Positions 2 through 4,808 of a stretch of 64,000 nt of DNA are shown one piece after another. Position 1 is the first letter of the stretch; each line of letters begins with the position of its first letter. The notes below the pieces were generated by a model. It saw only the letters and a program-made list of their open reading frames with translations, made no database searches and was not told where the DNA came from. This stretch comes from Kribbella kalugense (GTDB lineage Bacteria > Actinomycetota > Actinomycetes > Propionibacteriales > Kribbellaceae): positions 1,488,001 to 1,552,000 of the forward strand of contig NZ_SODF01000001.1 in the NCBI RefSeq assembly GCF_004365875.1. The letters are read 5' to 3'. Position numbers and translations under genes: made by a program.

Positions 2-340
2 GCGGGTGTGGTCGCGGCCGGCCGGTCCGCGCTGGTGGACGAGTTCGCCGACCGGCTGCCGTTCGGCTACGACACCCCGCTCGGCGAAAGCGGCGTACGA
101 CTGTCCGGTGGTCAGCGCCGCCGGGTCGCACTCGCCCGGGCCGCGGTCTCGTCGGCGCCGATGGTGCTGCTCGACGAGCCGACCGCGTCGCTCGACCCGG
201 TCTCCGCGGCCGCCGTGATCAATGCGATCCGGACCACGACCGCACACCGCACGGTCCTGCTCGTCACCCACGATCGCGACCTGGCGGCCATCGCCGACCG
301 GGTCGTCACGCTCGACCACCAACTCGCCGGAAGGAGGTGA
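2..340 (+). CDS. ABC transporter ATP-binding protein, C-terminal part (cut by window edge)
   Basis: Only the last 112 residues are in the window; the frame is open from the first bases, so the true start lies upstream. Visible are the ABC signature [14 protein letters not shown], the Walker B segment with catalytic Glu ([12 protein letters not shown]) and the H-loop (LLVTHDRD), that is, the second half of a nucleotide-binding domain. The style resembles CydC/CydD-type half-exporters, but the membrane domain is not visible, so the substrate is unknown. The last codons carry the ribosome binding site AAGGAGG (331-337) of the following Arg-Ser peptide gene, and the stop (338-340) is 5 nt before that start, implying translational coupling. 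Transport of the peptide is an inference from position only. Confidence 0.85.
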
Positions 341-345
341 ACCTC

Positions 346-438
346 ATGCGTATCAAGCCAGTCATGCACCACGGGCGGTCCCGGAGCCGGTCCCGTTCGC
401 GCAGCCGCAGCCGTTCCCGCAGCCGCTCGCGCGGCTGA
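346..438 (+). CDS. 30-residue peptide with nine Arg-Ser repeats, candidate modified-peptide precursor
   Basis: A short gene with a near-perfect ribosome binding site (AAGGAGG, 331-337) 8 nt before ATG. The product starts MRIKPVMHHG, continues as nine RS dipeptides and ends RG. Arg is written with cgg, cgt and cgc and Ser with tcc, tcg and agc; mixing TCN and AGC boxes argues for selection on the protein, although an 18-nt unit looks partly duplicated. There is no signal peptide, Cys or Thr. It lies between an ABC transporter gene and a Ser/Thr-kinase-like gene, with a hairpin after it. Known eukaryotic SR proteins are phosphorylated on RS repeats by SRPK kinases; here the kinase could act on the nine Ser residues, which is inference. 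Alternatives are a nucleic-acid-binding basic peptide or a chance ORF inside an upstream extension of the kinase frame, which is open back to 222. Confidence 0.6.
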   Translation: MRIKPVMHHGRSRSRSRSRSRSRSRSRSRG

Positions 439-444
439 CCCACC

Positions 445-478
445 AGCCTGCCGCCGGGCCACCACCCGGCGGCAGGCT
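445..478 (+). terminator. 14-bp hairpin between the Arg-Ser peptide gene and the kinase gene
   Basis: A perfect inverted repeat: AGCCTGCCGCCGGG (445-458) pairs with 465-478 across a 6-nt loop (ccacca). It starts 7 nt after the peptide stop and ends 22 nt before the kinase ATG. Only TTC follows, so it may be a leaky terminator or a 3' stabiliser. Such an element would leave more peptide mRNA than kinase mRNA, as is usual for precursor-enzyme operons. Confidence 0.6.
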
Positions 479-500
479 TCGACCCTTCTGGAGACTGATC

Positions 501-1277
501 ATGCTCATCGACACTGCTACCGATGACGTGGACGGACTGGCTGTCTGGGACTGGGCCGAAGGCTGCGAACTGCCGGGCGGAACATTCGCCATCGACCGCC
601 TCGGCGTCGGCCACCGCTCCGAGACCTGGCTGGTCTGGTCGGTCGCACTCTGGGCACCCGCCGTACTCAAAGCGGCCCGGCCCCATCAAATCCATCACCC
701 CCGCGCCGTCAAGTCCCTCCGCCGCGAGACCGCCGCGCTGTCCGGCAACCTGCACCCGGCCGTCCCCAGACTCCTGGCCGACGGCACGGACGAAGCGATC
801 CCGTACATCTTGGTCGAGTACGTCGACGGCCCGACCCTCGCCGACGAGCTCGAGGACAACGGCCTGCTCACCGGGCCCGAGGCCGCACTGCTCGGAGCAC
901 AACTGCTCCCTGCGCTGATGGCCCTCCACCATCGCGGCCTCGCACACCTGGACGTCAAACCCGACAACGTGGTCCTGCGCGACGGGCGACCCGTGCTGAT
1001 CGACTACGGCAGTGCGAGGCGGCTGGGCAGCGAGCAACCGGCCGGTCATCCTGTCGGCACGGAAGGCTATGCCTCGCCCGCCCAAGAAGCCTGCGAGCCA
1101 GTGTCCGCCGCGATGGACCTTTACAGCCTCGGCCGAACCCTCGCCGAGGCTTGCGGCGAGCTGCCCGACAGCCTGCAACTCCTCCTCGCGCCGCAACCCA
1201 ACTCAGCTGAAGCTTTGACAGCGCTCGCGGACGCGGCCGGCGAACTCCGGCCGTGGCCCGAATGGCTCAGGGCGTGA
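501..1277 (+). CDS. Stand-alone Ser/Thr-protein-kinase-like protein
   Basis: A 258-residue soluble protein that is essentially one kinase domain. Visible elements in order: a glycine-loop-like stretch (RLGVGHRSETW, residues 33-43), Lys57 in AVLKAA, Glu76 in LRRETAAL, the catalytic loop HLDVKPDNVVL (H149, D151, N156), DYG in place of DFG (168-170), the activation/P+1 segment GTEGYASPAQE and the D206-x-YSLG helix. All catalytic residues are present, so it should be active. There is no transmembrane or sensor domain, unlike Pkn-type kinases. The ATG at 501 is chosen because GGAG (490-493) sits 7 nt upstream, though the frame is open to 222. It follows the Arg-Ser peptide gene, the obvious candidate substrate by inference. 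Its 3' end overlaps the convergent SnoaL-like gene by 11 nt. Confidence 0.85.
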   Translation: MLIDTATDDVDGLAVWDWAEGCELPGGTFAIDRLGVGHRSETWLVWSVALWAPAVLKAARPHQIHHPRAVKSLRRETAALSGNLHPAVPRLLADGTDEAIPYILVEYVDGPTLADELEDNGLLTGPEAALLGAQLLPALMALHHRGLAHLDVKPDNVVLRDGRPVLIDYGSARRLGSEQPAGHPVGTEGYASPAQEACEPVSAAMDLYSLGRTLAEACGELPDSLQLLLAPQPNSAEALTALADAAGELRPWPEWLRA

Positions 1278-3945: not shown

Positions 3946-4808
3946 AGCAGACCGGTCCGCCGATACACCCGGCTCGCGGCCGGCGTCAGCAGCCCGACCG
4001 AGCCGAGGAAGTCCATCAGGTTCGAACAGCTTGTCCGCAGCAACGACCGGTGATGCTCGTTCCGCCGCGCCTCGCGGACCGCCCGGTCAGCATCCAGGCC
4101 GACGTTCGCATAGACCTCGCGGCTCACCATGCTGGACACGATCATGTCCGCCGCGATCGCGATCACCAGCGCACTCACCCAGCGCCGACCGCGACTCGCC
4201 CCAGCGAGACGGTCCCGAGTCTCCTCGCGGGCGAACACCATGTGCCGCGACTCCTCGACGACATGGATGTGGTTCACCGTCCGGACCAGCGGCTCGACCC
4301 GGCGATCACGCATCCAGTCCCGCTGCATGACGTCCAGGACTTCCTCTGCCACCAGAATCGCGGCGTACGCCGACTCGCCGGTGGCGACCGTCTTGAACAT
4401 CCGCCCGAGCTCCCGGGCCAGCAACCGCGGCCGGTACGACGGCTCGACCAACCGCTCCGTCGCCCGCGCGAACATGATCGAGTGCCGGCACTCGTCGGCG
4501 ATCTCGGTCAGCGCCCACTGGAACTCGGCACTCCGCGGCTGCTTGTCGTACACGTCCCGCAGGATCATCTGCTGCAGGATCAGCTCGAACCAGATCCCGG
4601 TCGTCGCCACCGACGCCGACTCGTGCCGGGTCAGCTCCCGCTGCTGTGTGTCGGTCAGCTCGTCCCAGTACGGCGTGCCGTAGAGCGTGCTCCACTCCGG
4701 CGACATCCCGTACCCGTCGCCGATCGGCGCATCCCAGTCGATCTCGGTCTCCGGATCCCGGGACAACCGGGCGGCCGATCCGAGCAACCGCTGAGCGGTC
4801 TCGTCCAT
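3942..4808 (-). CDS. AurF-like diiron oxygenase
   Basis: 288 residues. Four helices carry carboxylate/His motifs of a diiron site: RHESASVATTGIW, TEIADECRHSIMFARATE, ESAYAAILVAEEVLDVMQRD and VNHIHVVEESRHMVFAREE. This is the pattern of the AurF (p-aminobenzoate N-oxygenase) family, cytosolic diiron enzymes that oxidise amines or hydroxylate substrates; the substrate here is unknown. ATG 4808 is set by GGAGGTG just upstream, although the frame runs to 4997. It overlaps the FprB-like reductase gene, its likely electron donor. A strong palindrome lies 22-50 bp before the start and probably controls the operon. Confidence 0.85.
   Translation of the reverse strand: MDETAQRLLGSAARLSRDPETEIDWDAPIGDGYGMSPEWSTLYGTPYWDELTDTQQRELTRHESASVATTGIWFELILQQMILRDVYDKQPRSAEFQWALTEIADECRHSIMFARATERLVEPSYRPRLLARELGRMFKTVATGESAYAAILVAEEVLDVMQRDWMRDRRVEPLVRTVNHIHVVEESRHMVFAREETRDRLAGASRGRRWVSALVIAIAADMIVSSMVSREVYANVGLDADRAVREARRNEHHRSLLRTSCSNLMDFLGSVGLLTPAASRVYRRTGLL

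Follow-up and report, generated by a model that had tools for sequence, protein, structure and literature searches.

An RS-repeat peptide gene co-inherited with an ABC exporter and a stand-alone Ser/Thr kinase in Kribbella and its relatives: a candidate secreted phosphopeptide cassette

Introduction

A very short gene for an Arg-Ser (RS) repeat peptide lies between the genes for an ABC exporter and a stand-alone Ser/Thr protein kinase in Kribbella kalugense, and the three form a real and co-inherited cassette. Sixteen loci are known to date: 14 genomes from three genera share the exporter-peptide-kinase order (type I), and two Nocardioides carry the same components in a second layout. A search of the open-access full-text literature, with subscription journals outside its scope, found no description of this cassette of soil actinobacteria (Kribbella and relatives), which is undescribed as far as that literature shows; it most likely specifies a secreted peptide of a new type, whose phosphorylation we infer.

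Results

Organization of the locus in Kribbella kalugense

The window, i.e., the whole stretch of 64,000 nucleotides that was analyzed, starts at G000:C1:1488001 in a genome of 8.3 Mb, such that the exporter gene (G000:C1:1486658-1488340) begins upstream of it and lies mostly outside. The features at its beginning are collected in Table 1.

Table 1. Features of the cassette in the window (positions are those of the window)
Feature	Position	Strand	Remarks
ABC exporter gene, 3' end	2..340	+	type IV, TMD-NBD fused, 560 aa
Shine-Dalgarno AAGGAGG of peptide gene	331..337	+	overlaps end of ABC gene; read from sequence
RS-repeat peptide gene	346..438	+	MRIKPVMHHG(RS)9RG; net charge +12 without His
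GC-rich hairpin, 14 bp, between peptide and kinase genes	445..478	+	arms 445-458/465-478
Stand-alone Ser/Thr protein kinase gene	501..1277	+	258 aa; all catalytic residues present

The initial annotation had described a 30-residue RS ORF with a strong ribosome site, its coupling to the ABC gene, and a strong hairpin followed by a complete kinase, and direct reading of the window bears out all of these. The exporter frame closes with a TGA at 338-340, within the Shine-Dalgarno region of the peptide gene, so that the ribosome site overlaps the ABC stop codon; the peptide ORF runs from an ATG at 346 to a stop at 436-438; and the kinase behind the hairpin retains K57, E76, H149-x-D151, N156 and D168-Y-G.

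Distribution of the cassette

An orthologue of the kinase is present in 9 of 38 Kribbella genomes and the exporter in exactly the same nine, with the RS peptide between them in every case; the same ORF also occurs in four named Kribbella records retrieved via the kinase. Five cassettes, all with a repeat peptide, were recovered from two other genera—two by a pattern scan (G231 and G092), two more by a kinase profile (G067 and G117) and a deeper member, G1019, by the kinase profile alone in a blind test (E 4e-66). In G1019 the exporter stop overlaps the ribosome site, which is followed by MSTTHSSLIRGLAEAYPAQTSQRRTRTRTRGRTRTGHRRGHGRGHR, with Arg-Thr replacing Arg-Ser (RTRTRT...RTRT). Among 294 genomes of the order, 13 kinases were detected at E<1e-100, with the next matches at about 1e-44; these 13 close cassettes span three genera, and all 13 have an RS peptide between exporter and kinase. 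No further type I cassette emerged from a larger set of 392 genomes from the order. Across the phylum, 396 genomes were scanned with a sequence pattern, and none from outside the order yielded a real RS peptide; the pattern needs GGTGA just before the start codon and would therefore miss a peptide-first layout.

Every genome found with this kinase has the ORF at the corresponding position, which indicates an association beyond chance. The initial annotation had named related genomes with the same kinase and ABC genes and no RS ORF as the observation that would count against it, and the search for such genomes found none. Its postulated precursor-kinase-exporter cassette is well supported in its conserved linkage (9/38 co-occurrence and 16 loci); its comparison with the SRPK kinases is one of analogy (see below). 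The cassette shows patchy presence and absence among species, and no carriage on plasmids was found.

The second layout is seen in Nocardioides halotolerans (L018:2939-3097) and in G072 (L255, reverse complement from about 6577), where a ribosome site, peptide, hairpin, ABC exporter and kinase follow in that order. Their peptides bear Gly/Arg-Thr (GT/RT) repeats and end in GTGTGTRTRTRTRG or GTGTQTRTRTHG, and the exporters of the two loci share about 35% identity with that of the window. The type I kinases constitute one clade and the type II kinases a separate one; moreover, similar kinases with neither ABC gene nor peptide are common in Nocardioides, and no convincing peptide was found within 1.5 kb of the second-tier Nocardioides kinases that lack an adjacent exporter. 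Given the separate clades and the many unpaired kinases, the pairing of kinase and peptide could have arisen twice or could reflect a looser link. A second-clade kinase of Nocardioides aequoreus (L019:4301-5819) has two-component genes and an ABC gene that appears truncated as its neighbors; a repeat peptide was not found at this locus.

The repeat peptide

The Kribbella peptides take three forms: MRIKPVMHHG(RS)9RG and near copies, MLRIKPTMHHGHGRG(RS)8RD, and MPRIAPTMYHKRHKRHNKHSRSHSRSCSRSRSRSRSRC with a near copy. Across the family they span 25-53 aa, with a conserved N-terminal segment (RIK...HG) preceding the repeat, and in all type I cassettes the gene is preceded by a strong ribosome site. 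The peptide matched no NCBIfam family, and Pfam returned only insignificant low-complexity matches. G231 carries two tandem peptide genes, a habit of precursor genes, and this was counted in favor of a precursor.

In a comparison of six close orthologues from Kribbella, six codons vary, five of them synonymously (p=0.007), which, as judged from these codons, is the mark of purifying selection on the peptide. The repeat is built of up to six different hexamers and draws its Ser codons from both the TCN and AGY families, so that plain microsatellite slippage is ruled out; the initial annotation had surmised selection for the protein from the mixed codons. The peptide frame is the only one open in all members, the other two having stops in many orthologues. 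In particular, read-through from the frame at position 222 into the kinase, initially named as a refuting alternative, encounters stops inside the peptide gene in most Kribbella orthologues, and the 351-aa fusion ORF is therefore incidental. The conserved ORF, ribosome site, purifying selection and sole open frame together point to a ribosomally made peptide.

The residue alternating with Ser/Thr is Arg at 84% of positions in Ser/Thr-anchored tracts, and that alternating with Arg is Ser/Thr at 89% of positions in Arg-anchored tracts. With Arg about as conserved as the hydroxyl residues, alternation alone does not tell phosphorylation from charge, and it may be charge, not phosphorylation, that the Arg-Ser/Thr pattern serves. 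Under residue shuffling alone, the alternation seen in G1019 does not reach significance (p=0.23).

The kinase and the exporter

The candidate modifying enzyme, i.e., the kinase, is always adjacent to the peptide gene or within the cassette and has intact catalytic residues, with G35, G37, K57, E76, D151, N156 and D168 invariant in 13/13 sequences. Its structure is predicted with confidence (pLDDT 91.9) as a PknB-like fold, and among solved bacterial kinases PknB, PknG and PknA come closest to it in sequence as well as fold. This grouping, along with the absence of the spacer insert, excludes it from the SRPK family; the eukaryotic comparison made initially is one of analogy only. Two other assignments were rejected, namely a PknB/PASTA receptor kinase (kinase domain only; 89 versus a cut-off of 450 bits) and a class III/IV lanthipeptide synthetase (a 258-aa kinase only; 75.7 and 49.4 versus 650 and 575 bits). 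A role in anti-phage defense was also discarded: the PADLOC matches of the kinase are to generic kinase models, and those of the exporter are partial matches to ATPases. The L115 kinase contains an in-frame tandem-repeat insertion, DGTDGTDGTD.

The exporter, with its fused membrane and ATPase domains, falls below every curated cut-off among the models listed, including those of the CydCD thiol exporter, which was rejected at 290.9 versus 435 bits (CydD) and 271.3 versus 329 bits (CydC). Conserved acidic residues occur in its membrane part. One exporter has an in-frame tandem-repeat insertion, AGTTGTTGTTGTTGT, in its ATPase domain (L002 about 4680-4720).

Hairpin and two-component genes

A stem of 12-21 bp starts 4-25 nt past the peptide stop in 16/16 loci, though in one of these its energy z-score is weak (-1.3). 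The kinase has its own, weaker ribosome site behind a hairpin. The U tracts after the hairpins are poor or weak, which leaves terminator, attenuator and stabilizer all as candidate roles. The coding region pairs with the 5' arm of the stem no better than its synonymous variants do (z -0.9 to 2.0, mostly >0), and so gives no sign of an antiterminator; no Rfam family matched. The simplest reading would be a stoichiometry hairpin, by which more of the peptide is made than of the product that follows.

In Kribbella, the genes for a histidine kinase and a NarL-type regulator lie divergent to the exporter gene, and the sensor kinase is present in all nine cassette-bearing genomes as well as in G030. 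The latter retains the two-component genes (L246, G030:C1:3294000-3309000) and lacks exporter, RS peptide and kinase altogether, with no significant remnants of any of them in the gap. In genus g2, two of the loci have a regulator next to the cassette. The search beside the cassettes of G117, G092 and G1019 found no two-component genes. The position of these genes suggests that they may control the cassette. The short gap between the histidine kinase and ABC genes contains a palindrome-like element, GTCCTAGTACCAAGGTGCACTACC, kept in the seven Kribbella compared; at L141:8600-8660, between sensor kinase and exporter, it is a candidate response-regulator site. Several Kribbella cassettes also have, beside the response regulator, a gene for a conserved 159-aa protein (L141:6108-6584, minus strand) with no Pfam or NCBIfam match.

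Discussion

Proposed mechanism and alternatives

The reading that best unites the expression signals of the peptide gene, the adjacent exporter, the intact kinase and the hydroxyl repeats is that of a secreted phosphopeptide: the locus is probably, if only just so, a RiPP-like operon in which a cationic repeat precursor is made in excess, phosphorylated on Ser/Thr and exported. In Kribbella, the divergent two-component system would switch on all three genes of the cassette; the peptide would be kept in excess over the kinase by its strong ribosome site and the hairpin downstream of its gene; the kinase would phosphorylate the regularly spaced Ser/Thr residues and thereby convert a strongly basic peptide into a phosphopeptide of alternating charge; and the fused exporter would secrete it as a signal or as an interaction or defense peptide. 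While the genes, their order and co-inheritance, the catalytic residues and the RS/RT alternation are direct observations, phosphorylation, export, regulation and biological role are what these would imply. The Ser-to-Thr swap in the relatives fits phosphorylation of the peptide but does not prove it. No protease gene was recognized in the cassette, and the peptide has no clear leader/core boundary.

The main rival casts the peptide as a cationic toxin or antimicrobial, the unmodified Arg-rich chain binding nucleic acids or membranes, with the kinase neutralizing the charge within the producing cell and expulsion left to the ABC protein. A net charge of +11 to +14 in every member, the patchy distribution among species, and the exporter and two-component genes next door, as in many bacteriocin loci, speak for such self-protection; yet, the peptides contain no amphipathic or hydrophobic stretch, and neither an immunity-like extra gene nor a phosphatase was found. 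Sequence does not separate this toxin from a signal peptide, and on balance it appears unlikely. More improbable still is a lack of any action between peptide and kinase, in which case the kinase would regulate the exporter or some other protein and the peptide would be cargo or regulator of the exporter. PknB-like kinases do have many substrates, and this one has its own, weaker ribosome site behind the hairpin, but such independence sits poorly with the co-inheritance of all three genes in 16 loci and with repeat hydroxyls that are kept as either Ser or Thr.

Two further explanations may be considered very unlikely. A codon-repeat ORF placed closely before a hairpin in 16/16 loci, and standing as the first gene in the Nocardioides layout, recalls a transcription attenuator that acts on the following gene and has the ORF as its Arg/Ser-codon leader peptide; against this stand the weak U tracts, the lack of antiterminator pairing beyond synonymous variants or of an Rfam match, the strict dipeptide alternation across Ser codon families, the conserved RIK...HG segment, the tandem copies and the Ser-to-Thr swap. 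Marginally the least credible is a lanthipeptide-like dehydration, in which Ser/Thr would be activated by the kinase and then stripped of phosphate by a lyase encoded at an unlinked locus, to leave dehydro-residues: LanL/LanKC kinase domains are among the better curated matches of the kinase, but at the bit scores given above they lie far under their cut-offs, no lyase or cyclase was recognized beside the cassettes among the part of the neighbors that was domain-scanned, and most peptides lack Cys.

Relationship to known systems and significance

The secreted phosphopeptide reading places the cassette close to the RiPP cassettes, with which it shares a short precursor gene, a strong ribosome site, a hairpin, an adjacent candidate modifying enzyme, a fused ABC exporter and a two-component neighbor. 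It differs from them in having a stand-alone kinase as the sole candidate enzyme and an Arg-Ser/Arg-Thr core; neither a lyase nor a cyclase nor a C39 peptidase was recognized. A parallel might be struck with LanKC/LanL, the kinases of class III/IV/V lanthipeptides, in the proposed action of a Ser/Thr kinase on a small precursor and in a weak kinase-domain similarity, although the window kinase has neither a lyase nor a cyclase domain and scores far under the family cut-offs. Lasso peptide kinases are RiPP-associated, have an HPr-kinase-like fold and act on a single C-terminal Ser, the phosphate being retained in the product; the cassette would resemble them in pairing a RiPP-associated kinase with a retained phosphate, while the fold, the single terminal Ser and the lasso machinery remain theirs.

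In eukaryotic SR proteins, the substrates of SRPK kinases, RS dipeptides are phosphorylated (PMC11809128, PMC4841541). The likeness lies in an RS dipeptide repeat alongside a Ser/Thr kinase; here, in contrast, the kinase is PknB-like without the SRPK spacer insert, the peptide is free and of 25-53 aa, and the setting is a bacterial exporter cassette. There is no sign of shared ancestry between the two systems, and the parallel is best taken as analogy. It is quite possible, if somewhat short of probable, that the cassette represents a bacterial phospho-RS system under two-component control, in which a free Arg-Ser/Arg-Thr repeat peptide is phosphorylated at several sites by a dedicated kinase and passes out through a dedicated exporter; this peptide class would have no described counterpart and would parallel, by convergence, the RS domains of eukaryotes and the kinases that act on them.

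Should the kinase prove to modify the peptide, the cassette would define a new class of ribosomal peptides, with a protein kinase as the sole enzyme and, as the core, an RS repeat—a motif hitherto familiar mainly as a eukaryotic phosphorylation platform. Such peptides would escape genome pipelines that discard very short ORFs. The peptide, kinase, exporter and sensor make up a small, fully testable system, and one that offers a specific candidate substrate for the otherwise orphan Ser/Thr kinases of actinobacteria.
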